A stretch of 64,000 nucleotides of DNA, taken from assembly GCA_014904985.1 (NCBI GenBank), contig MU129032.1:98284-162283 (forward strand), written 5' to 3'. A program made the translations under genes and the position numbers. The stretch comes from Hydnum rufescens UP504 (taxonomy: Eukaryota > Basidiomycota > Agaricomycetes > Cantharellales > Hydnaceae). This document shows positions 2,764 to 26,172 of this stretch, piece by piece (position 1 is the first letter of the stretch; every line of letters begins with the position of its first letter). Under the pieces are notes generated by a model. That model was not told the origin of the DNA, ran no database searches, and worked only from the letters and a program-made list of their open reading frames with translations.

Positions 2764-4698
2764 CTAGTTGATACCTCCAATTCCAACCTGGAGAGAAGCT
2801 AAAATTGATGCAAGAAAATAGTGGTGAAGTGCCTCCACAGCTGTGGCATGTTCCTCTTGAGGGTATTGGCCTGAAAGTAGCTGGATAATGGTGGGTCCTG
2901 GGAAGACAACTGACCCAAAACAAGTTCTCCATGAAGGCTGCCCATGTTGAATTATTGTATGATGCTCCTCAGTTGAGAGGACACTGGTGGTGGCATCTCG
3001 AGTGGCATCAATGAAAATCACCTAATCAATGCTTTAGAAGTGGAGTTTTCACTGACAAATAAGGATACCAAATACCGTAATATGGGATGCTGAATGAACA
3101 GCATCAGAGCCTGTGGCTGCCTGGTAAAATGACTGTGCACGGAATGCTGGTTTCTCAAGATCATCATCATCATAGGATATCAAGCCATTTTGGTGCATTG
3201 ATTGGCCAAGAGCAGGGTTGGGCAATCCAATGCCCAAGAGGAAGTCTTTGAATAGCATTCCGAAGGAGGAACCTCTGAACTCATCTCCTATGGCATGCAG
3301 AGCATTACGAAGTGCAGGGCCCTCATCTTTGATGACCATGATATCAATGACCTGGGATGGATCAGTGATTCAGCCAGACTCTATCTTTTCCAGGAAACCA
3401 ATTGTTCTGCCCAGAAATTTTTGCTCAATGAGCTAGATCAAAGGCATTAATCCAGGTCACCACATGAAAGATGAAAAAAATATGTACCTGAAAGAGATTT
3501 GTGCCATTGGCCATCTCCATCTTCAGGCCCTGAGCAAAGGCAAGCATCTCGGGATGATGTAAATCAGTATTCCCAAATAGGGATCGAAGTAGGATGAGTT
3601 CTTCTAGTCGGTCATGGGCCTCCTCTGTCCGGTGTTCAATATCAGCAGGCTAGCAAAAAATTTTTAGCAACATGGCAATATAAGAGATGTGAGCAGCCAT
3701 TACATTGATATCCACATGACTCATCAGATGTGCAGAAAGTGGCCGCAAGTCACCTTGAAATCCAATGGCCCTGAATTCACGGAGAACCCGTAGAAGGTCT
3801 GGGGCCAGCATTTGGAGAACCTGCCGTGTGAGTGCATTGATGTCACCATTATGGACTGCCAGGTAATATTGCAGGGGAGAGTAATTCAGGGGGAAATGGC
3901 CACATATAAGGACAGACAGTGAAATAGCAACACCCTTTTCAAATGCATGCTGAAGTTGCACAGTGGAGGAAGGGATAGCAGATGAGGTTGTTGATGGCAC
4001 AAACACCAATTTATCCCCAAATTTAGGGGCTACATTTCGTGCTGTTTGGGGATCCAATATGAGTCGCCAAACAAGGGCCTGTACTGTTTCCCTTTGGACC
4101 CCTGAGCCAGAAGACATTTCGGCAAGACCTGGTGGCTCTCTATTTAACAAGAGCCATCAGTTGGACAAGATGCCATGAAAAGTGAGTGGGCACAAACAGG
4201 ATCCAGTGCTGAATTTCAGTCACCAATTCATCCACCACACCATGGCGGAAACAACGATGAATTATGGCCAGCAGGACATTCACCATGTCATCCATGCTAG
4301 AGCCCCGGACCACTAGCTCTTGGACAATGAGTGGTGGATGAGCAAGATCAGCCCTTGCAGCAGCCTCTTGTAGTCGGGGCATAAGTTCCTGTACTGCCTG
4401 GATCCTGGGAATGGAGTAAACACCCCATATCCTAGGCAAGCCAGGATATGTATGAGTCCAAAGACGACGATGGCCCTTGACCAGAAGTCAGTGCTATTCA
4501 GATAGGAGAGAATAGAAATCCTACCAAGGCACTATTGGCAGCAAATGTGGATCCCTCAAGATCTGATGCCACTGAAGCAACAGGGGCCACAATTTGCATT
4601 GGCCCGTTGAAGGTTCTTCAGCATTATCAATGGGTTCTTCGTCCTCTCCCTCCGAACAAAGGGAATCCAACCTGGTCAGCCACAAATGTACATCTAGT
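2764..4698 (-). pseudogene. HECT-like E3 ubiquitin ligase, 3' half (interrupted)
   Basis: Six exons join in frame through five introns of 54-58 nt (about 4475-4532, 4140-4193, 3650-3703, 3433-3487 and 3022-3075). The joined protein resembles a HECT catalytic domain. An N-lobe-like stretch (VAISLSVLICG then NYSPLQYYL) is coded near 3850-3910. Near the end a TGS motif (FYQAATGSDAV) precedes WRTCFGSVVFPG, whose Cys at 2920-2922 sits where the thioester Cys of HECT C-lobes lies, with a short tail after it. HECT ligases pass ubiquitin from E2 to substrate through that Cys. Two defects suggest the gene is dead: an in-frame TGA at 3370-3372 and the 6.5 kb insertion upstream. HECT identity rests on motif spacing, not on a search. 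Confidence 0.55.
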
Positions 4699-4700
4699 TA

Positions 4701-4760
4701 GATACAATGAGCCTTGCATTTAAATAGTCTAACTAGATGTTTTTAGGCGGGGGCCCCTGG
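4701..4760 (+). repeat. Left terminal inverted repeat of the 6.5 kb element
   Basis: Pairs with 11138-11197. The outermost bases also form a small local hairpin, because TCTAGTTAGA at 4693-4702 is repeated inverted at 4728-4738. A GC-rich block (GGGGCCCC repeated) follows to about 4812. Confidence 0.7.
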
Positions 4761-5146
4761 GCCTCCAGGGGTGATTTCGGACCCTCAGACAAGGGGCCCC
4801 AGGGGCCCCTGGCTCTGAACTTGGAAAAATTCACCAAAATTGGGACTTAAAGAATCAAGACTTAGACAGGAGTAGGCTGCCCCCAAGCAGGTCAACAGGC
4901 CATACAGGCTTATCGGCAACTATGATTATTTACTTATTATTGTTGATTCTCATACATATTATTATTATACAAGTATTATACACATCTATCTACCCTCAGC
5001 CTCACCTCAGTCGCATATTTTCATTCAGGGCTTTGCTTGGCAGGTCTTTAGTTGCGGGTTTTGGTAAGACAGGTGTTCATTCAGCAGGTTTCCATGTAGG
5101 GGGTTTTGGCTGGGCTTGTGCGGGTGTTGGTTCATCAGATTGTGGC

Positions 5147-5244
5147 CTAAAATAATAAGATACAAGTTAGAAATTTGAACCAGTGCAAAAAGAGCAGCTT
5201 AAGCTGCTCTTTTTGCGTGGCTGTATCTACTGTGGGTGACTTAC
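5147..5244 (-). repeat. Intron-like hairpin unit M1
   Basis: Minus strand: donor AAG/GTAAGTCACC, branch-like TTCTAACTTG, acceptor TTTTAG. Between donor and branch lies a perfect 32 bp palindrome at 5185-5216 (left arm GCAAAAAGAGCAGCTT). A second hairpin of ACACACC / GGTGTGT type (5256-5282) lies just upstream of the donor. Confidence 0.65.
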
Positions 5245-5390
5245 CTTATATAGGACCACACACCTGCCATGTGGGTGTGTGGTTCACGTGGGTCCTTCAT
5301 TCAGCGGGTTTTGATTGGGCAGGTCTTCGTTCGGCAGTTGTTCATTTGGTGGATTGCCATTTGGGAGGGGGGGCTCGTTCAGGTGATGTC

Positions 5391-5491
5391 CTAGAAAAAT
5401 TGATAAAATGTTAGTTAAAATTTATAACCAGCACAAAAAGAGCAGCAATTGCTGCTCTTTTTGCGCTGTTGCATACACTAGATCTATTTAC
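5391..5491 (-). repeat. Intron-like hairpin unit M2
   Basis: Donor AAG/GTAAATAGAT, branch-like ACTAACAT, acceptor TTTCTAG. A 30 bp perfect palindrome at 5434-5463 (left arm CAAAAAGAGCAGCAA). The pre-donor hairpin is at 5503-5530. Confidence 0.65.
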
Positions 5492-5649
5492 CTTATATAT
5501 CACCACACACCTGCCGCAGTGGGTGTGTGGTTGGTGTGTCTTCATTCAGCGGGTTTTCATCAGGCGGGGGTTCATTCGGCAGATTGTTGTTTGGGAGGGG
5601 GGCTTGTTTGGCGTGTGTTTGTCCAGCAGCTTCTGGTTCAGGCGATGTC

Positions 5650-5744
5650 CTAGAAAAATTGATAAGATGTCAGTGAAAATCTATAACCAGCACAAAAAGA
5701 GCAGCAAATGCTGCTCTTTTTGCGCGGTTGCATACACTACTTAC
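5650..5744 (-). repeat. Intron-like hairpin unit M3
   Basis: Donor AAG/GTAAGTAGTG, branch-like CTGACAT, acceptor TTTCTAG. The hairpin arm is CAAAAAGAGCAGCA with a short loop. The pre-donor hairpin has stem CCACACACCCGC / GCGGGTGTGG. Confidence 0.65.
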
Positions 5745-6034
5745 CTTATATATTACCACACACCCGCTTTGGCGGGTGTGGTGTGGGCGGTTTTGTTTGG
5801 CAGGTGGCCATTTGGCCTGTGCTCGTTTGGTGGGTGGGCATTGGGTGGGCATTCATATGTTGGGTTTTGGTCGGGCGGGCATTTGTTCATTTGGCGGGTT
5901 TGCTTGTTTTGTACTGCAGTCGCGTGGTTCATACTCAGTACAGTGGCTGGTCATCATTTACGGGGTTCGCGGGTTTCCCTTCTCGCGGGTTTCATTCAGC
6001 GGGGTTGTGGGTCTTGATTGGGTGTTGTGACAAC

Positions 6035-6131
6035 CTAGAATAATAAATAGGATGTTAGTAAACCAAAAAAAAAAAGAAAAGCCAGGCAAAAGGAGCAGCG
6101 TATGCTGCTCCTTTTGCGTCGTTGTACTTAC
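6035..6131 (-). repeat. Intron-like hairpin unit M4
   Basis: Donor AAAG/GTAAGTACAA, branch-like TACTAACATC, acceptor TTCTAG. The hairpin at 6086-6117 has arm GCAAAAGGAGCAGC, an A-to-G change relative to M1 that is matched by T-to-C on the opposite arm. Confidence 0.65.
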
Positions 6132-6316
6132 CTTTAAATTACCACACACCCGCTTCAGCGGGTGTGTGGTTCCATCTGCATTTTCGGTCATCTCACGTCG
6201 TGGGTTTCGTCTGGTGGGCCGATCGTGGGCGGGTGTCATTGGTTGGGGTTTTGGCAGGTTGCATTCATACGTTTCATTAGGCGGGGGGGGGCTTCGTTGT
6301 GAACTCAGATGATGAT

Positions 6317-6424
6317 CTAGAATAGTAAGTAATATGTTAGCAAAAAAGAAAAAAAAAAAGAAAAAGGAAAAGCCATGCAAAAGGAGCTGCATATGCTGCT
6401 CCTTTTGCGCAGTTGTACAGATAC
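6317..6424 (-). repeat. Intron-like hairpin unit M5 (donor degenerate)
   Basis: Acceptor TTCTAG and branch-like GCTAACATA are present. The expected donor GTAAGT reads CTAAGT; a GTATCT four bases further in could serve instead (end given at that site). The hairpin arm is GCAAAAGGAGCTGC, with one stem mismatch. Confidence 0.55.
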
Positions 6425-6605
6425 TTAGCTTAATATTACCACACCCACTTTGGCAGGTGTGGTTCCATCTGTGGTTTCTGTGGTCTTGCGTTGTGGGTTT
6501 CGTCGGGTGGGCCGATCGTGCGGGTTTCGTTTGGTTGGGGTTTTGGTGGGTTACGTTCGTACATTTCATTAGGCGGGGAGCTTCATTGTGAACTCAGATG
6601 AGGAT

Positions 6606-6710
6606 CTAGAATAATAAGTAATACATTAGCAAAAAAGAAAAGAAAGAAGAAAGAAAAGCCACACAAAAGGAGCAGCATACGCTGCTCCTTTTGCGCAGTT
6701 GTACAGATAC
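6606..6710 (-). repeat. Intron-like hairpin unit M6 (donor degenerate)
   Basis: Same CTAAGT donor defect as M5, so the two probably arose by local duplication; M4 to M7 recur every ~280 bp. The branch-like site is GCTAATGT. The hairpin arm is ACAAAAGGAGCAGC. Confidence 0.55.
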
Positions 6711-6883
6711 TTAGCTTAATATTACCACACCCGCCGAAGTGGGTGTGGTTCCGTCTGCAGTTTCTGTGGTCTTGCGCCGTGGGTTTTGTCTGGTGGGCCA
6801 ATCGTGGGCGGGTGTCATTTAGTTGGGGTTTTGGCGGGTTACGTTCATAGGTTTCATTAGGCGGGGGGTTCGCAGATGACAAT

Positions 6884-6991
6884 CTAGAATAATAAATAAT
6901 ACATTAGTAAAAAAGAAAAGAAGAGAAAAGAAAAGCCGTGCAAAAGGAGCAGCGTATGCTGCTCCTTTTGTGCGGTTGTACAGATGCTTAC
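6884..6991 (-). repeat. Intron-like hairpin unit M7
   Basis: Donor AAG/GTAAGCATCT, branch-like ACTAATGT, acceptor TTCTAG. The hairpin arm is GCAAAAGGAGCAGC with the compensating CTCC on the other side. The pre-donor hairpin is at about 7001-7029. Confidence 0.6.
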
Positions 6992-7126
6992 CTTGAAATC
7001 CCCACACATCTGCTGCAGCGGGTGTGTGGTTCGCGTTGCTACCTCTCATGCCTTCGTTTGGCGCATTGCCATGGGGGCCTTGGCTGGTTGGGTCTCATTG
7101 TTTGGCACCGGGGACCAGGCCAGGAC

Positions 7127-7236
7127 CTAGAATAATAATGAATGGTGTTAGTAAAGAAATTCAATGCGGCGCAAAAAGAGCAGCTTTCACTGCTCTTTTT
7201 GTGCCACAGTATCTATTGGGGCGGAGGGGAACTCAC
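7127..7236 (-). repeat. Intron-like hairpin unit M8
   Basis: Donor TTAAG/GTGAGTTCCC, branch-like TACTAACACC, acceptor TTCTAG. The hairpin arm is GCGCAAAAAGAGCAG. Its donor lies 414 bp from the centre of the palindrome, exactly mirroring unit P1 on the other side. Confidence 0.65.
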
Positions 7237-7336
7237 CTTAAATAGTACCACACACCTGCCGCAGTGGGTGTGTGGTCGTGTGCTCACCTTTCTGGCGCTG
7301 CTGGGTGTGGCTGCGTAGTTGTGCAAACCCAACACT

Positions 7337-7961
7337 GGCAATTGCCGGTACTCAACAAGCGCCCAAGTGCTGGTGCCACAAGGAGAATACATATTAATAA
7401 CAAGTATCTGGACCTGTAATAAATACTATACAATGAATATTGATCTAAAAATGCAAAGAAGCGATGACAATAAGTCAGGGCTCAACACAGCATGATATGC
7501 CTAATTGGAAAGTGGATTGAGCCACTTCTGTGGGTCAGAATTGGCCCAAATTTAAATATATTAATGGTATATATGCACCCTATGTGGACGATCATTTATA
7601 TCAGCTGTTCCAGGCATTTTTCAATTTTTCATGCCTTCAATTCCCTAAATAGGGAATTGAAGGCATGAAAAATTGAAAAATGCCCAGAACAGCTGATATA
7701 ATAATCGTCCATGTAGGTGCATATATACCATTAATATATTTAAATTTGGGCCAATTCTGACCCACAGAAGTGGCTCAATCCACTTTCCAATTAGGCATAT
7801 CATGCTGTGTTGAGCCCTGACTTATTGTCATCACCTTCTTCATATTTTTGGATCAATATTTATTGTATAGTATTTATTACAGGTCCAGATGCTTGTTATT
7901 AATATGTATTCTCCTTGTGGCACCAGCACTTGGGCGCTTGTTGAGTACCGGCAATTGCCGG
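7337..7961. repeat. 625 bp central palindrome (foldback)
   Basis: Two arms of about 310 bp are inverted copies with a few mismatches, meeting near 7649 at TTCCCTAAATAGGGAA. Both outer ends contain GGCAATTGCCGG, itself palindromic. The two intron-like arrays point outward from here, so this is where divergent transcription would have to begin; I saw no clear promoter motif. As RNA or single-stranded DNA it would form a very long hairpin. Confidence 0.85.
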
Positions 7962-8063
7962 CATTAAGTTTGCATCTTCCTCCACATCTCCGCTACCACA
8001 ACAACTGCCTGAAAAGGCAACCACACGACCACACACCCGCCGCTGTGGGTGTGTGGTCACAAG

Positions 8064-8168
8064 GTGAGTATTTCTATGAGTAGATACAATGGCGGGAAAA
8101 GAGCAGCGAAAAGCTGCTCTTTTTCTGCTGCTTTGAATCATATACTAACATGTTGTTTATCACCATAG
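8064..8168 (+). repeat. Intron-like hairpin unit P1
   Basis: Plus strand: donor ACAAG/GTGAGTATTT, branch-like ATACTAACATG, acceptor CACCATAG. The hairpin arm is AAAAGAGCAGC. The pre-donor hairpin CCACACACCCGCC / GGTGTGTGG is at 8030-8057. Confidence 0.65.
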
Positions 8169-8224
8169 ATTGAGGCCTTCTCCAAGGCATGATGAAACCC
8201 CATGAAACGACTGGGCCATGCAAC

Positions 8225-8400
8225 ACAATACGCCGCAACACACCAAATGGTAACGCACCAAATGATGCGACATACGGCAACATGCCGAACAAGGATGCAA
8301 CATGACGTATGCGACACGCCAAATGGCGATGCAACATATGGCAACATGCCTAACGGTAGCGCGCCAAACAAGGATGCGACCATGCCAAATGAGGGCTCCA
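8225..8400 (+). repeat. Minisatellite between units P1 and P2
   Basis: Irregular tandem repeats built around GCAACATGCCAAA and GATGCGACATA, roughly 25-30 bp per unit, fill most of the stretch between two intron-like units. It does not read as a credible protein. Confidence 0.5.
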
Positions 8401-8442
8401 GGAACCACACACCTGCTGCAGTGGTGTGTGGTACTATATAAG

Positions 8443-8550
8443 GTGAGTGTCCCCCCAGTAAATACAGCTGCACAAAAAGAGCAGCAAAAGCTGCTCTTTT
8501 TGTGCTGGTCTTACTACTTAAGTACTAACCTATATATTTTTTAATTGTAG
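8443..8550 (+). repeat. Intron-like hairpin unit P2
   Basis: Donor ATAAG/GTGAGTGTCC, branch-like GTACTAACCT, pyrimidine-rich tail, acceptor TTGTAG. The hairpin arm GCACAAAAAGAGCAGC pairs fully with its partner. This is the most intron-like unit on the plus strand. Confidence 0.65.
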
Positions 8551-8724
8551 TGTTCCTCAACCCTCATGCAAGACCCATGCACCACAGTATCACCCCCGCA
8601 CCCGTACATCGAACGATACCCCGCTGTGGAAGATAAAAACATCCAGTATCAGAAATGCGAAATTACACAACTTCCAGCCATTGGACGATCACATGACCGA
8701 TTATGAGATTAATTATGGCTATGT

Positions 8725-9210
8725 GCAGAAACCAAATTCGTTTTATAACTCCGTCATTTGATCGGAGAGGTACGCCCATATAACGCTTAGAAAGCTACGA
8801 TTCACACCTTTCGAACGGTACCAAACACAAGTTGAACGGACCAAAACTGCACTCTCCAGGCAATTTTATTATTAAAATCCAGGATTTCCAGTAAAAAATG
8901 AATACCTCCGTCAGTTTGCATTCAATCCTCTCAGAACAACCGCGCCTAGAAAGATATAAAAAATCCGCATCCAACGGTATTAAGCACGCGAAGAACAGAT
9001 TAAAACTGAACTCTACAGAACGATATTACTATCAGAATCAACACCCATCAGTAAAAACGAATTTCTCCGTCAGTTTACACCGGATCTGCTCGGAACCACC
9101 GCGCCAGAAAGCTGTTAAAAATCCGCATCGAATGATACCAAGCACGCCTATTACAGATACAAACTGCTGTCTCTGCATCGAATCCCACACCATGCACTTG
9201 TTCCTTTTAT
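8725..9210 (+). repeat. ~160 bp satellite, about three copies
   Basis: Two clear copies start near 8892 and 9050, each with a CTCCGTCAGTTT block, then CGCGCC-AGAAAG, then AATCCGCATC. A more diverged copy precedes them from about 8725. No coding potential is seen. Confidence 0.55.
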
Positions 9211-9274
9211 TAACCAGTAACAAAAACACCTTAACCACTGGACTATGCTCAGATTAATCTCCAGAACCCAGAGA

Positions 9275-10177
9275 TGTCCTTTAATTTTGCTTCCCATGAG
9301 CCCCAAAACACATCACAAGATCAGTGACATCATGCTCCAACCACTCCACAAGCTCAGCAAATTAGTGACATCATTCCCTTTATGAATCCTTTTGTTCTCT
9401 TTATGAATGACATCACTATGACTTCACTATGACATCACACTCCATGGATGACTCAGCTATGACCGCATTATGACATCATTTCTTTATTACTCTTTTGTTC
9501 TACTCCACTATGACTCCCCCATGACATCACTATGATCTCATAGCTTTATTACTCTTTTGTTCTTGCTCCATGCACAGCCACCTTCAGATAGGTATATAAG
9601 CTAGCAGATTTTCTTGTTCCCCCCCATCTCCTCACTCTGGAAATCAACCACTGTCAACTACTGTCTACCATTCTGCTTAATATCTAAAGAACTGTCTATC
9701 TAAAGCCATCTGGAGCTAAGTCATCTTCAAGGTTGTTGAGACCAAGCTACTGGAAGCCATCTATGCAAAATACTGAAGCCAAGGATAGTTGCAGAACCTA
9801 AGGTTAGAGTTGCTGGACATCCAAGGAAAAAGTAAGCATAACGAAATACAAGTCAGGAAAGAAGATTGAAGCATACTAACCAAACTAACCAAGCGCTGAC
9901 CATTCCATAGCCCACAGATATCCGCATTTTGACTAGGAGGACGTAAACAAGGACACACAAATATCAGTAAATGAACAAACGCAACGCGAACACGCATAAG
10001 CCTTTCCACAAGCATCCCAGACGTATAAGCCTTCCTATAAGCATCCTCCACATATAAGCCTTTCTATAAGCATTCCATATGATGTATAAGCCTTCCTATA
10101 AGCATCTACGATATATCATTGACTATTGCTAGTCCATATCACATTCCATTCTCCAATAAACACATACATATCTTGCA
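9275..10177 (+). mobile_element. Solo LTR, 903 bp, nested in the element
   Basis: Begins TGTCC and ends TTGCA, with GAGA directly repeated on both sides (9271-9274 and 10178-10181). Inside are an LTR-style promoter (GGTATATAAGC near 9590, after many TATGACATCA repeats) and a possible polyadenylation signal CCAATAAAC near the end. No internal retrotransposon sequence remains, so it looks like a solo LTR left by recombination. The 4 bp duplication is short; a 5 bp reading shifted by one base also fits. Confidence 0.6.
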
Positions 10178-10419
10178 GAGAGTGATCAACCATTGAAGCG
10201 AACCAACCCATTTGAATAAACAGAAACACAGTCTCCTATCTACACACTGGCTGAACCAGATTTTGATTTAACAGTCATCGGAGCTCCCAACCCTTCTTCT
10301 ATACTGCGAGACCCCTGTACAAAAAACCAGGCACGAGTCCATATAGACACCGCCATTGAAATGAATGACACAATACGAGGTGCCACACCCCCGCTGCGGC
10401 AGGTGTGTGGTACTAGAAT

Positions 10420-10528
10420 GTATGTTTTGTATTTTTTAAATCTAATTTCTATGTCTATGTGGCGCAAAAAGGGCAGCGCAAGCTGCCCTTTTTGCGTCAC
10501 TTCTGATTTATATATCTTTTGATTCTAG
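10420..10528 (+). repeat. Intron-like hairpin unit P3
   Basis: Donor GAAT/GTATGTTTTG, acceptor GATTCTAG, weaker branch-like CTGATTTA. The hairpin arm GCAAAAAGGGCAGC differs from M1 at another position (A to G) and is again matched on the other arm. Confidence 0.6.
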
Positions 10529-10705
10529 ATCGCGCAACACAGACTGCCCAAGCCCCCGAACGAGCAACCCCCAACAACAGAACCCCATGCGAATCCACAA
10601 ACCAGCAGATACGAGCCCGCACAGACCCCACCATCCACATGACCGGTGCAGGTGCACCGTGAGGCACCACGCCCGCTCCAGTGCGAGTGTGGTACTAGAA
10701 TATAG

Positions 10706-10804
10706 GTTCCCCCCCCCCCATAATGACAATCACGCAAGAAGAGCAGCCACAGGTTGCTCTTCTTGTGCATTTTTGAATTTTAACTAACATATCCTTTACT
10801 CTAG
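10706..10804 (+). repeat. Intron-like hairpin unit P4
   Basis: Branch-like TAACTAACATA and acceptor ACTCTAG are strong; the donor (GTTCCC) is weak. The hairpin arm GCAAGAAGAGCAGC carries a third compensated change (AAAAA to AAGAA with TTCTT opposite). Confidence 0.55.
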
Positions 10805-10934
10805 GAACCAGGCCTCATGTGAATGCTCAAACCGGACCCACACGAGTATATGAGCCAGGACCCAGGCGAACATACAAATGAACACAAGGGGAGAAGAGAG
10901 TAACCCCCACTGCAGTGGGTGTGATCATTTTAAG

Positions 10935-11041
10935 GTATGTATTTATTCATTTTGCTACAAGTGCGCAAGAAGAGCAGCCTGTGGTTGCTCTTCTTGGGTG
11001 CATGGTGAGCCCCACTGGGCGAGCCTATCAATGTATATAGG
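10935..11041 (+). repeat. Intron-like hairpin unit P5 (decayed 3' end)
   Basis: Donor TTAAG/GTATGTATTT is good and the hairpin has the P4-type arm GCAAGAAGAGCAGC. No convincing branch site; TATATAG is only a possible acceptor. It abuts the AAAT microsatellite. Confidence 0.45.
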
Positions 11042-11085
11042 AATAATAACAATAAATAAATAAATAAATAAATAAATAATAAATG
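11042..11085 (+). repeat. (AAAT)n microsatellite
   Basis: About ten tandem AAAT-type units lie directly before the GC-rich subterminal block of the right end. Confidence 0.9.
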
Positions 11086-11137
11086 CCAGGGGCCCCTGGG
11101 CTGCTTGAGGGGCCCCTTGATTGTATTGCAGGGGCCC

Positions 11138-11197
11138 CCGGGGGCCCCCTGGTGTAAACCTCTAGTTAGATATAATAAATGCAATGCTCATTATATC
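11138..11197 (-). repeat. Right terminal inverted repeat of the 6.5 kb element
   Basis: Reverse complement matches 4701-4760 with scattered mismatches. It is preceded by GGGGCCCC-rich sequence (11089-11152) like the left end. Confidence 0.7.
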
Positions 11198-11199
11198 TA

Positions 11200-12583
11200 G
11201 TATGATGCGGAAAAGTGGCTGACCAGCCTGAGGGAATCACCCATATAATCATCAGGATGAATCGTGACTCCAGAGGGATTGGTGAGGCCCTCTCGGTGGA
11301 TCTCATCATGGTCATCAGTACAGAAACCATACCAGACCCAGTTACCACTACATGAATGGCCCCACTGAAGCATATGGGAGAATGGAAGCATAACAGTTGA
11401 GCCTTCACAAATAGGGGCTATTATTGAATCATCACAAATCAGCATGCCTCTAAATAGGCCACAATGCCAGGGGAAAATAGGACTCACCAAGACACAAAAT
11501 AAAGGCCTGGGTGTTTGGATCAGTGCAGAGGACTTTTGGAGCACCATGTGGATTTTTGGACACCATAAGTTCTGCTAGAGTATGGTTGGCATACCACTCA
11601 AGTGGTACTTCTTTCAATGTTTGTCGCCCAGGTGTTCCTCTTGCAGACACCCGACTGTGGTCATGGGGAATGAGAGTGGTGAGGGCTAGAATAGTATGGT
11701 TTGGTATCGAGGGAGGGAGTATGAAATGAGCATGTAGAGGTGCCAATCGGAACGCATCTTCAGCTCTCCATACAAGATCCACTAGGGTGGTTGTTAAGCT
11801 GAAGTCGGGCCATTCAATCAAGCGGTGGAGAGCACGGAGCCTCTCCCTAAAATGGGTGGCTCTTGTGCTGTGGAGAGTCAATTTTCCGCACATAAGATCG
11901 GGGAGCTCTTTCTAGAAGTATGTCAGCTGGGCAAATATAACGATTCAAAGTCAAAATGAATACTCACCCAATGGGTCAGTAGCTGCACTTGGACAGGATG
12001 CGTACTTGGCCATTGACAACAGCTGCCTGCCTACAGGGGGTTCTTGATAATATCGGGTCAGGCCTCGCTGGACCACGGCCTCGCGGTCGACGTTCTGGAA
12101 CTCAATGTCGAGCTGCCTCCTCATTACGGCAGAGGGCAGTCAAATTTTGTGTTGACGACACCCCAGGGTAAAGATTTTGCCCTGGTGCGCCAAGGAAAGG
12201 AATGGCAGGAGTATATGGTTGGTATGATTCCGGGGGATTTGTAAGGGGGGAGTATACTGATTCGGGAGAGGAATGATGGGCTGGCTGGGAGGGGCTGGAC
12301 CAGTAGCATGGGCAACTGCTGCACCAAAGGCACCAAGGGAACTGACACTATGAGAACCAGCTCCATCGGGGGAGGTCCGGTGCAAAGTGCCTGGATAGGC
12401 AGTGATCGGGTGCGAAGACGAGGCCGTTGCAGCAGAGGGCCCTGAAGCATGCGACGGTGAGTTCGGACTCTCATCTGGAAAATTAGATGGGCCCGGGGGG
12501 CCGGTTGTTGCGACGGGTCTCTGCATAGTCTGTAACATGCCTAATATGTGCGCTAGAAGAGCCTGTTGACCCCCATCTCCCAT
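11200..12583 (-). pseudogene. HECT-like E3 ubiquitin ligase, 5' half (interrupted)
   Basis: Minus-strand start at 12581-12583 (MGDGGQQALL), then a Ser/Pro/Thr-rich region, then coding stretches at about 12010-12130, 11488-11920 and 11200-11449. Conserved-looking pieces are DLVWRAEDAFRL and GFCTDDHDEIHREG. The intron before the last stretch (11450-11487) is only 38 nt. The frame running into the transposon (…VSHFSASY) continues directly on the far side at 4698 (LDVHLWLTRLDSL…) if the element is removed leaving one TA, so both halves were one gene. The junction itself reads TAA. The N-terminal exon structure is not fully resolved. Confidence 0.5.
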
Positions 12584-21070: not shown

Positions 21071-23271
21071 TGACGGCCTTACCCAAACGATGACAACCTT
21101 GCACTTGATAACCTACCAATGCACCCTAAATAAAGCTCAGTATATTCGACGCCACGTCTGTGAAGGGACGTGCTTACCATTTGGTTTGCGGTGGGTGTGA
21201 TTTAGCACCATGCTCAACCATCTATCATCACCCAAAGGCGCAACCTCCTGCAAGAATGACGTCTGAGGCTCTTGCATTATGTCCTCCCTTAAATTTGATG
21301 CGGCTACCCACTTGTACTAACCCAACAACAGATTTCAAATGGGGGAAGGGGGGGGGGGCACAATTCCATGGACAGCCGAGAATTGCTGGAGAAACAAAGC
21401 TCGGACTGCCAAAAGTCCAGGGGATCCCCCGTCGTGTTTCTTGTCAAGGATCCGGCCAATGGTTTCCAGTGTTGGCTGCGGTAGGATCTGGATGACTTTT
21501 GAGACAAGCGCGGAGAGGAAGTGCTGCCAAGGGAATAGGAATGCGCACTGTGCCCCTCTATCCCGTATGATAGACGAACCCGAAGTGTACTCCCCATCCC
21601 ATATTTCAGCCGCAAGGTTTCCGCAAAGTGCGAAACAGATCCGCTCAAGAACGTGCTCGGTAATGCTAATATTCCTTTCATTAAAAGATCATCGAAATCC
21701 GAGCATGGCCCTAGCAACAAGCAAACCGTTACAAGCCGACAAAGGAACGAAGGAAGAGGAGACAGAATTTGGGCTTCTGTATGGCACGAAGGGGTGAAAA
21801 GCTGATATCTTGCTCTGCGAACAACACCAGGGAGCCCAAAGAGTCATAAAGGAAAGTACTAGGGACGACGCAGAGTAGCTCAGTGTTTGTGCAACGAATG
21901 TCGCCAAAGAAGGGTTCACGACAAAGAGGAAGTGTCCAGGGAGTCCTTTGTTATTTTCAAGATAGCAGCTGCCAAGTTGTAATTTTCTATGCGGATTTAA
22001 GCGTGAGGGAAACGTTGGCGGACTACGAGGGAGGTAAGATATTTATTCAGTTGGGAAAATCTTACATTAAAACAAGTACGAATGGCTTCAAAGGCTTTGT
22101 CTATACCCTGGCGTAATGGAGAATAGAAATGACTTGGATGTGACATCCGGCTAGTCTATGGCGAGTGGTCAGCTGCCGGATTTGTACAAACATGGGTGCA
22201 CCTACAGTTGGCAAGGGACAGCATCAACACCTCAAGCATGGTGATGTGAGATGCCGTCCGCGGAGCAGGGGTCCTGTTGGTGTCATCCTCGAATAATACC
22301 ATTTCCGAATCCAGTATCCCTGATATTCCGGTGGTGACTGATATCACCCTGTCACATAGACACGCATCGACGCCTGAAGAGACAACGACTTCCATCTTTA
22401 CTCCCATCCGAGGCCAGCAATTCATATGGCAGGCGAAGCAAATGATATCCACTAGCCATGATCTCTCATAATGGCGTCCTCTCCGAAGGAGTCCATGGAA
22501 GTGACGAACATCTCTTGAAAACAGATCCACCAAGGGCTCTGCGAATTGCTGTCAATGCCTTGTCCCACTCTGTCTATAGGAAACGGTCCCGGAAGTCATA
22601 GAGCCATTACTTCCATTACCTGCCGAAAACAAGTACTGTGATCGGAGAATACGCAAAAGAGTGAGTCAGACTGGAAGATTTCGTGGCGGCAAATTGGTTG
22701 GCGAGATCATGTCTTTGCTGCTGAAACAGAGGGTGAGGGAAACACAGCTACATATCAGGATTTTTCCCAACACACCCCGTGCTGCGTGACAGTATGGAAT
22801 AGTGAAGTGTCTTCGCAGCGCATAGATGCGTACGGCGACAGTGGAATACGCCGATGAGTTGCCGAGGTTTGCGCACTCAGTCACATTCGTGACATCGTTG
22901 TTATAATCGCTCCAAATCTTAGAGCCCACCTGTCCGTGCAGATCATAGTGCAGCGTGATATACCCTGATTGAACAGTATCTCCATCGTACCTCCAGCCGA
23001 TCTTGGCAGTCCGCACCTCGTGATTACGATGGACAACCGCATCTTCGTCAGTGAGTTGCCTTTCAATATCTCCTCCCGGTCCTCATCCTCATCTATGGTT
23101 GCTCTCAGTCACTGGTCATGGGGTCATGGTGTAGATGGCGGTACTGGCGGCCGAGCAGGGGATGTCCATTTCCACTACGGTATCAGTTAGCCCCTCCCTC
23201 ACGTAATAGAATCTTGGTCCATAATCGATGCTCTTCCAGATGGGCCAGGTTCTTCTGATACTTCCCTTTTA
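21071..23271. other. No supported gene; possible remnants
   Basis: Minus-strand frames at 22156-22533 and 22666-23066 have protein-like composition but no family I recognise and no convincing joins. Plus-strand sequence just before 23272 stays open for about 30 codons, so an upstream exon of the NACHT gene could lie here. Confidence 0.4.
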
Positions 23272-26172
23272 ATGGACCTTCCTCGAGCCGTGTATGCGAC
23301 CTACAACTCTGTCCGCGAGGACGCACCGTCATCATGTCTTGGGGGCACTCGTGTTGCTATACTGGAGGAGATTCTGACATGGTCAGGGAGCACGAACGGC
23401 GAAAGACCACCTGTATACTGGCTCAGCGGACTCGCTGGCATCGGGAAATCGACCATCGCGAAAACCGTCGCTGAACGAGCGGAAGAGAAAGCCATGTTAG
23501 GCGCTACTTTCTTCTTTTCTCGGAACGACAAACCTTTGCGAGATCCCGGGCTCGTACTACCGACGCTCGCTTTCCAACTCGCGCATTCGGACATTGCGTT
23601 CAAGGAGGCCATCGTGAGTGTCCTCAGACAAGATCCGATAGCTGGGCGAAAGGAACTGTTGTCTCAGCTTCAGCAATTAATCTTGACGCCCCTTCTCACT
23701 ATTAATCCCCATCGGAGCCCAGTACTCATCATTCTGGATGCCCTCGATGAGTGCGAAGAAAAGGGTGCTGCCGATATTTTGCGACTTGTATTTACCTACC
23801 TCATCCAAATACCTTTCCTCCGGATCCTGATCACAAGCCGTCCACGACCTCACCTATCCTCGGTCTTCAGTAATGTCCGGAATCTCGCGCACACGGTTCT
23901 TCACGACATTGATGCATTCGTTGTTCAGCAAGACATCCGCCTGTATATCTCCGCCGAATTGGCCAAAATTCCAGGGAAACTTGGTCTTGATATGCCTACT
24001 GATTGGGTGACGGAGGCCCAGAAGATCTTGCTGCTAGAGAAGTGCGGGAAGTTATTCGTTTACGCAGCGACGGCGATCCGCTTCATCGGGGACGATCGTG
24101 TCCAAGATCCTCGTACACATCTAAACCTTATACTTAATAACCAATCCCTCCAACAAGCCGGAGTGACGCCGTATTCGCACCTGGACAGCCTTTATATGGA
24201 GGTCCTTCGTAACTCGGTTTCTCTATCTAATTATCGAGAGATTCTGAAGCGATTTCAAATCATCATCGGGAGCATCGTGCTGTTGCGCGAACCCCTCCCA
24301 CTCCATTCATTGGCCAAGTTCGTTCAGTACGAACGATACGTCGTTGAGGCTAGTTTGCGTCATCTTCATTCAGTCATTGTTCCCCCTTCTGATGTTCACG
24401 ATGCCCCTCGTATCTACCACCCTTCATTCCTCGAATTTATTACCGATCCTTCGCGATGTTCCATGGCGGAATTCGTGATTGCAGCCGAGCCAGAGCAGGA
24501 ATTGCGCCATGCTATCCGGTGCTTTGAACTCATGGCAGCACATCTAAAGCGGGATGTCGCTGAGATCTCGGATCCATCACTGCTGAACAGGGAAGTGCAT
24601 GGATTTGAACGGAAGGTGAAAGAGGCGCTGTCACCGGAGGTTCAGTATGCATGCCGGTACTGGGCATCCCATCTATCGCGTGTGGAGGTCGGGGAGATGA
24701 CAATGATGGAGGCATTGGAGGCATTTGTAATGCGGTCAATTTTATGGTGGTTTGAAGCAATGAGTTTGCTTGGGAGTGTCTCCCATGCTGTGAACTCAAT
24801 TGAGGAGGCACACCGCTGGGCGGTATGTTTATTTCTTATTGATCCTCAGTAGTGACTGAGTTCAGAATGATTCTGATTGCAGAAAAATTCAAGAAGCAAG
24901 GCAATTGTTGTAAGAATCTTATCCGATTCCCGCCGATTCATTCTCACACATGGGGAAGTGATAAGAGCAAGTGCACTGCATGTCTATCATTCTGCATTGC
25001 CTTTCACTCCACATGACACTGCACTGTACAAGGTGTATTGTGGAGATGGAAAGGATTCTATTAAGGTTCTCCAAGGCCTGGAGTCTGCATGGCTGCAGAA
25101 CTTGAGTACTTTACATGGCCATTCTGATTGGGTTACAACTTGTGCATTTTCACCTGATGGATTGCACCTAGCATCAGGCTCCTATGATCATACTGTGCAA
25201 CTGTGGGATGCCATATCTGGTGCATCCATCATAAAACTGGAAGGCCATTCTGATTGGGTGATGACAGTTGCATTTTCACCTGATGGATTGTGCCTGGCAT
25301 CAGGCTCTGATGATCATACTCTACAATTGTGGGATGCCATATCTGGTGCATCCATCACAATACTGGAAGGCCATTCTGGTGGGGTTTCAACTGTAGCATT
25401 TTCACCAGATGGATTGCACCTGGCATCAGGCTCCTCTGATCATACTCTACAGTTGTGGGATGCCACATCTGGCAGGTGCATATCAAAACTGGAAGGCCAT
25501 TCTGCTTCAGTTTGGACTATTGCATTTTCACCTGATGGATTGTACCTGGCATCAGGCTCCTGGGATCATACTTTACGGTTGTGGGATGCCATATCTGGCA
25601 CATCTATTGCAACATTAGAGGGCCATTCTGATGTGGTTCAAGAGGTTGCATTTTCCCTTGATGGTCTTACTCTGATTTCTCACTCAGAGGTGGAGACCTT
25701 CACTTGGGATTTGACTTCCCAGCCTCCCAACCTAGCCACTGGGTCATCCGCAGCAGCCCCTGGGCCTATTGTGGGCTTGACTCCACTCATTTGGTCTCTG
25801 CAAGGCCAGTGGATCCAAGTGAAGCACCAGGAAGATGATCATGCCCGACACATATGTTACATCCCACCACCTCACTTACCCACTATCCTTGTGTCAAGTC
25901 AGCAGACCCACTCCCGAATTGCAGTTGGGTGCCGTGATGGCCGTGTGATAATCCTTGCTGTTCTAAGTGACCCCTTTAATTGGCATTTTGGTGAAGACCC
26001 AATTTATACTGGGCTGATGCCTAGTGTTACACCTCCACATTCACCTCTGACCAATCATGACACCCCTTTTACAAATGAGGAAACCCCTCTCATGGATCAT
26101 AATACCCTCTATCAAAAGCATGCCTGGGGCCATAAAATCCTGCAATGGGTTAGGCTTATGTTCTGTTGCTAG
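23272..26172 (+). CDS. NACHT-WD40 STAND protein (fungal NLR-like)
   Basis: Two exons (23272-24822, 24883-26172) joined by a 60 nt intron give 946 aa. The NACHT NTPase has the P-loop GLAGIGKSTIAKT (about residues 61-73), a Walker B-type LIILDALDEC and a following LITSRPRPH sensor-like motif. After about residue 600 come four complete and one partial WD40 repeats (GHSDWV…FSPDG…LWD), then a non-repeated tail. Such proteins act in heterokaryon incompatibility and probably innate recognition, with WD repeats as the sensing surface and NACHT as the oligomerising switch. No N-terminal effector domain lies in this frame. The ATG used sits in a longer open frame, so the true start may be upstream. Exon 2 is nearly CpG-free, unlike exon 1. 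Confidence 0.85.
25111..25710 (+). repeat. Tandem 126 bp WD40 repeats
   Basis: Units start at 25111, 25237, 25363 and 25489, with a truncated fifth at 25615. Full units are nearly identical over 42 residues. The residue after SGS (Y, D, S, W) and those after GHS (DWV, DWV, GGV, ASV) vary between units. Confidence 0.95.

Follow-up and report, generated by a model that had tools for sequence, protein, structure and literature searches.

Outward-facing arrays of structured intron-like units in a probable non-autonomous hAT-like transposon family of Hydnum rufescens

We analysed a stretch of 64,000 nucleotides from the genome of Hydnum rufescens UP504 (GenBank assembly GCA_014904985.1, contig MU129032.1, positions 98,284 to 162,283; hereafter the window) and found that thirteen intron-shaped units with conserved hairpins make up the two arms of one terminal inverted repeat (TIR) transposon, located at window positions 4668-11230 and spanning 6563 bp including a nested insertion. 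The element probably belongs to a non-autonomous hAT-like TIR family that carries two outward-reading, noncoding and intron-dense transcription units and that has spread by transposition and by internal tandem duplication. More tentatively, the cargo of this family may be a functional intron array, consisting of thousands of related introns with RNA-selected hairpins, kept for the efficient splicing of the element's own outward noncoding transcripts, which would thereby evade silencing linked to stalled splicing or gain expression.

A scan for the mid-unit hairpin (hairpin A) yielded 13 sites between positions 5187 and 10995 and 0 sites in one shuffled window. Eight lie on the minus strand to the left and five on the plus strand to the right of a central palindrome (7322-7974), all pointing outward, and this agrees in number, strand and direction with a preliminary description of the region made from the sequence alone. 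That description also took the donor to be mostly GTRAGT and a branch-like motif to be present throughout, and both statements needed adjustment: reading the donors of some units directly from the sequence, we counted an exact GTRAGT in 6 of 13 and a near-consensus GT in 10 of 13, with CTAAGT in place of the expected GTAAGT in units 5 and 6 (hairpins 6379 and 6665), while a CTRAY branch was present in 12 of 13 units and absent from the outermost plus-strand unit (hairpin 10967). The arrays do sit within one transposon, as had been proposed, and its ends extend beyond the 5147-11041 interval first noted. The features are as follows.

4668..11230: whole TIR element, with TIRs CAACCTGGTCAGCCAC / CAGGCTGGTCAGCCAC and the 8-bp target-site duplication AGGGAATC on both sides
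4660..4667: left target-site duplication AGGGAATC, perfect (8/8)
11231..11238: right target-site duplication AGGGAATC, perfect (8/8)
7322..7974: central palindrome, arms 92-100% complementary
8625..10305: nested insertion from outside the family, begins TG; L009, L010, L011 and L014 run through the matching place without it
5147..5244, minus strand: unit 1, AAG/GTAAGT, hairpin A 5187-5214, TCTAAC, TTTTAG
5391..5491, minus strand: unit 2, AAG/GTAAAT, hairpin A 5435-5462, ACTAAC
5650..5744, minus strand: unit 3, AAG/GTAAGT, hairpin A 5694-5721, ACTGAC
6035..6131, minus strand: unit 4, AAG/GTAAGT, hairpin A 6088-6115, ACTAAC
6317..6428, minus strand: unit 5, donor lost (AAG/CTAAGT), hairpin A 6379-6406, GCTAAC
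6606..6714, minus strand: unit 6, donor lost (AAG/CTAAGT), hairpin A 6665-6692, GCTAAT
6884..6991, minus strand: unit 7, AAG/GTAAGC, hairpin A 6942-6969, ACTAAT
7127..7236, minus strand: unit 8, AAG/GTGAGT, hairpin A 7173-7200, ACTAAC
8064..8168, plus strand: unit 9, AAG/GTGAGT, hairpin A 8096-8124, ACTAAC
8443..8550, plus strand: unit 10, AAG/GTGAGT, hairpin A 8474-8501, ACTAAC
10420..10528, plus strand: unit 11, AAT/GTATGT, hairpin A 10466-10493, weak branch CTGAT
10706..10804 (left edge approximate), plus strand: unit 12, no consensus donor (GTTCCC), hairpin A 10736-10764, ACTAAC
10935..11040 (right edge approximate), plus strand: unit 13, AAG/GTATGT, hairpin A 10967-10995, no branch; degenerate and outermost

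To delimit the element, we compared the window with sister loci (labels beginning with L denote stretches from elsewhere in the genome, and labels beginning with C denote contigs), and found that homology to sister copies (~87-96% identity) sets in at 4664-4668 and ends at 11230-11232. The target-site duplication (TSD) was examined in 25 loci, retaining only pairs matching at 7/8 or more, and was perfect (8/8) in the window, L009 and L016, the three that had both ends recognised (at most 3 mismatches, right order); with a weaker second end it was 8/8 in L011 and 7/8 in L028. Such 8-bp TSDs together with short TIRs are features of hAT elements. The genome (63.2 Mb, 539 contigs) was then searched for patterns of each part. 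The TIR pattern matched 550 and 525 sites (control pattern, 5 and 6), hairpin A, with 3 mismatches allowed, 6408 sites and hairpin B, the hairpin in front of the donor, 5386 sites (reversed-pattern controls, 0 for each), and the core of the central palindrome 283 sites in forward and 285 in reverse orientation (control, 0), i.e. ~280 cores. From these counts we infer several hundred elements, each with roughly a dozen units. The nested insertion (~1.68 kb, starting with TGTGGAAG) entered the right array later than the element itself, and its sequence was also matched in L009, L012, L016, L017, L021, L023 and L027. Both TIRs contain GGGGCCCCTGG-rich stretches (window 4745-4812 and 11092-11150).

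Splice-like motifs accompany the hairpins in an ordered way across loci. Among 314 hairpins from the window and 24 loci, 245 had, on one strand, both a GTRWGY donor no more than 75 nt away and a downstream CTRAY-YAG, against 9.5% for the same test at 4000 random positions in L009-L028; hairpins without splice motifs, the outcome that the preliminary description had set against its own proposal, are thus not the rule. For comparison of sense and antisense, 270 units were oriented by hairpin B: AGGTRWGY occurred between hairpins B and A in 57% of units (antisense 0%, shuffled 0.4%), and CTRAY-YAG after hairpin A in 90% (antisense 2%, shuffled 19%). Of the 270, 197 had a GTRWG donor, which in 177 of them began 6-11 nt past the hairpin-B core; the median intron length was 104 nt (n=184). 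Base composition changes along the unit, with 10% T and 36% A in the 60 nt ahead of hairpin B (the exon side) and 60% T in the tract from hairpin A to the branch. As in the window, orientation follows the centre: 168 of the 185 units within 3.5 kb of it read outward (in the 17 loci, of 22, in which a centre was recognised), the 17 inward-reading units being confined to five loci. One array unit, in L047 (C4:84660-85340), had no hairpin B 5' of the donor, and its upstream exon was not of the usual low-complexity kind.

To assess conservation, we aligned 70 of 104 non-redundant units, drawn from the 214 of 270 having CTRAY-YAG and 28-nt hairpins. Information content was 1.56-1.71 bits in the stems, 1.31 at the donor and 1.82 at the branch, compared with 0.52-0.56 in the loops and 0.27-0.38 at the exon edges; stems and branch had served to select the units and the donor had not, and the conservation of branch and acceptor is partly a matter of choice because units were picked by CTRAY-YAG. 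In the stems, 95.6% of cells were paired, 17 of 28 pairs were altered on both sides, and pairing fell to 30-55% in slid-register controls. Double-change cells numbered 99 against 29.9 in shuffles, with 0 of 500 shuffles reaching 99, figures that are not probabilities, the aligned units being kin.

Since DNA palindromes can covary too, we compared G-U with A-C combinations on the splice-motif strand. Outside CpG pairs, hairpin A had 125 G-U versus 37 A-C over all units, with G-U leading in 22 of 24 informative loci (sign test, p 3.6e-5), and 34 versus 10 in the 70-unit alignment. At CpG pairs the two were equal (67 versus 71), as CpG decay predicts; with CpG pairs included, the G-U:A-C counts were 192:108 for hairpin A, against 104:101 for hairpin B. 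A strand-biased mutation process as the source of the excess found no support, as singletons outside CpG on the transcript strand (7 copies, left arm, 1786 columns) showed no bias that would mimic it (C>T 17, G>A 20, A>G 8, T>C 9). Given the G-U excess and no matching mutational bias, hairpin A appears to be under selection as an RNA structure of the strand bearing the splice motifs. In folding predictions, the sense strand of all five units examined gave z -4.1 to -10.0.

Several observations weigh against the reading as a transposon with outward, spliced transcription units, or against parts of it. The antisense strand folds to a similar degree (z -3.0 to -9.7), and the sense strand had the lower energy in only 2 of 5 units; hairpin B is ambiguous, with 40 G-U versus 26 A-C over all units (not significant) and 18 versus 5 in the 70-unit alignment. 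The units share ancestry, and their hairpins were picked by likeness to a consensus; template switching, moreover, can perfect palindromes and also yield double changes. Among recent copies, the substitution rate was not lower in hairpins (0.0116) than elsewhere (0.0105), which is as expected of dead copies and gives no sign of function. A GTRWG donor is missing from 73 of 270 units, and a consensus GT donor from 3 of 13 in the window, so that many present copies would be unable to splice fully. Between branch and acceptor, AG showed no significant depletion (25 AG, 39 GA, p 0.10), and no transposase with family TIRs was found when TIR sites were compared with hAT matches, among the matches listed.

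The near-equal folding of both strands and the ambiguity of hairpin B would also suit an account in which the hairpins are DNA-level palindromic sites for binding or replication, used by transposase or host factors, with the splice-like motifs as passengers. Subterminal repeats of hAT elements bind transposases, which adds to its appeal. We nevertheless consider it rather unlikely: it leaves aside the correct order and spacing of donor, branch and acceptor on one strand, the conservation of a donor that played no part in choosing the units, the strand-specific tolerance of G-U in hairpin A, and the sharp contrast in base composition between intron and exon. We give hardly any credence to an account in which the arms are the decayed remains of a multi-exon protein gene, its exons repeated, that a transposon captured, even though the tandem exon-intron units and stop-free runs of about 200 codons in the arms would fit it. 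When 14 chains with at least 4 introns, several of which are near-identical copies, were spliced in silico and compared with local shuffles, 0 of 14 had a longer open reading frame at the 5% level (the lowest value being 11 of 100). Exon lengths divided by 3 left remainders in the proportion 23/23/20, and the length of one exon compared among near-identical copies differed by single bases (e.g. 381-385). The exons of the arms are noncoding, and the spacers, with 10% T, are the low-complexity sequence without credible protein that had been described at the outset.

The resemblance to introner-like elements proposed in the preliminary description fared less well. On that account each unit would be a mobile intron able to enter genes on its own, with the transposon as a tandem nursery. 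It has in its favour an intron grammar combined with a stable hairpin in thousands of related copies, and fungal introner-like elements have likewise been described as symmetrical, structured introns (PMC8469720). We sought single copies in gene introns among 58 distinct exact hairpin sites, taken in contig order from C1-C5 among the matches listed. A listed neighbour lay within 2.5 kb of 52 of them, which were classed by that alone and not by reading their sequence. Of the 6 without a close neighbour, all of which were read, 5 lay inside family elements: L041, L042, L043 and L047 each contained further hairpins, and L046 (681 bp) had one full unit beside a palindrome half, i.e. the centre of an element. 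The sixth, L045, lacked hairpin B, and no splice motifs could be made out by eye; its hairpin region matched an array unit in L010 (61 bp, 85%), and the hairpin is flanked by a different repeat, 96% identical to one in L042, which leads us to regard L045 as a cut remnant of a unit. An additional site on C48 (L048) also lay in an array, and none of the 7 hairpin sites read, the six from the C1-C5 sample and L048, lay within an ordinary gene's intron. The units share with introners the canonical motifs for donor, branch and acceptor (270 units, 73 without GTRWG donor) and a stable secondary structure, but related introns in many host genes were not seen (58 sites sampled, 6 read, 0 gene introns). 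The sample sets a bound on escapes into genes, of which a few may still exist, and we judge the introner account to be quite improbable. The other repeat just mentioned (L045:240-361 and L042:2408-2529, 96% identical) has one end resembling the family TIR.

Returning to the favoured reading of a noncoding, intron-dense, hAT-like family, the following mechanism can be proposed. Two noncoding transcription units would start at the central palindrome, the presumed divergent start region, and run outward as T-poor exons split by U2-type introns. These introns share a layout: hairpin B mostly stands 6-11 nt before the 5' splice site, hairpin A lies in mid-intron, and a T-rich tract leads from there to a CTAAY branch and on to an acceptor resembling TTATTATTCTAG. 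Hairpin A may fold in the RNA, shorten the path from donor to branch and help the spliceosome to remove the intron. The median donor-to-branch distance is 84 nt, or 48 nt with hairpin A (36 nt) folded (n=189), and a 104-nt intron would come down to ~68 nt; as two introns of a host sirtuin gene measure roughly 55-70 nt (by eye from tblastn edges), folding would bring the units near host intron size, judging by these two introns. Units would multiply by two routes: the whole element would carry them along when moved by cut-and-paste in trans, and within an arm an exon and its intron would be duplicated together in tandem. For the element, the most probable benefit would be that its own transcripts are kept properly spliced and stable. 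In yeast, a correlation between intron secondary structure and splicing efficiency has been reported (PMC2536676), and Cryptococcus introns are described as needed for gene expression (PMC5851062), from which we speculate that an element could gain from well-spliced outward transcripts, through expression or through escape from silencing linked to stalled splicing.

Mobilisation in trans would call for a transposase bounded by the family's terminal sequence, CAGGCTGGTCAGYCAC. We searched for such an autonomous partner by comparing the coordinates of TIR sites (the first 100 of each set) with those of hAT matches. The hAT dimerisation domain had 90 matches in the genome, and the family TIR was present at none of the 12 loci examined (~3.2 kb each). 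A hAT piece on C71 was considered as partner and rejected, being by eye a fragment of another hAT family with different ends. This foreign transposase fragment abuts the central palindrome of one copy (L049/L050, C71:84580-87070), and L050 (711 bp) contained neither hairpin A nor hairpin B.

Non-autonomous hAT elements have 8-bp TSDs, TIRs beginning CA and no transposase of their own. The family described here resembles them in its 8-bp TSD, in TIRs beginning CA and in that no transposase of its own was seen, but differs in its size (5-6.5 kb), its central palindrome and its arrays of structured intron units. Foldback elements such as Galileo have large inverted arms around a centre, as does this family, whose arms nevertheless are divergent arrays of related units, with a near-perfect palindrome only in the central 650 bp. 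Introners of Micromonas and Dothideomycetes share with it the spliceosomal motifs and the very many related copies per genome, and those of fungi are also structured; unlike them, the present units stand in tandem in a noncoding transposon, with no read site in a gene. In the portion of a survey that we consulted, the fungi named among introner-bearing groups were only Pezizomycotina/ascomycetes (PMC9860276). The sister stwintrons of Hypoxylaceae likewise form families of sequence-similar, internally symmetrical introns, but they enter genes, inserting at new positions without flanking tandem duplications (PMC8469720), whereas these units are in tandem within a transposon. The splicing aid proposed for hairpin A recalls structured yeast introns, which are single introns of host genes (PMC2536676), whereas this hairpin recurs in thousands of transposon units. 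Among open-access texts searched with a few terms, none stood out as describing arrays of introns within a DNA transposon.

If the units are spliced, they would constitute a very large family of sequence-related introns in one genome, housed in a transposon and not in genes, and a functional array would mean that the element uses splicing selfishly without inserting introns gene by gene. The system lends itself to testing intron multiplication by tandem duplication, a possible protection of transposon RNA by structured introns against silencing, and whether gene introns ever arise from arrays of this kind. The comparison of G-U with A-C by strand offers a general means to tell RNA from DNA selection on repeated hairpins.

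Some further observations were made along the way. An Rfam scan gave 11 matches at E up to 1, none reaching the gathering score; the best-scoring were to microRNA models and lay in the central palindrome. In a prokaryote collection, hairpin A in its exact 28-nt form was matched in 106 stretches, and a search of viral contigs matched 4 stretches; among 80 listed bacterial stretches, 79 had one site and one had two, and the bacterial matches are presumably terminators. A sirtuin-like protein encoded in the window has its closest match in Cantharellus anzutake (55% over 59% of the query), followed by three unnamed sequences and by Tulasnella and other Agaricomycetes, which points to a Cantharellales-like basidiomycete as host. 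Two long open reading frames at window 23191-26172 encode, by eye, what we take to be a NACHT domain followed by WD40 repeats.

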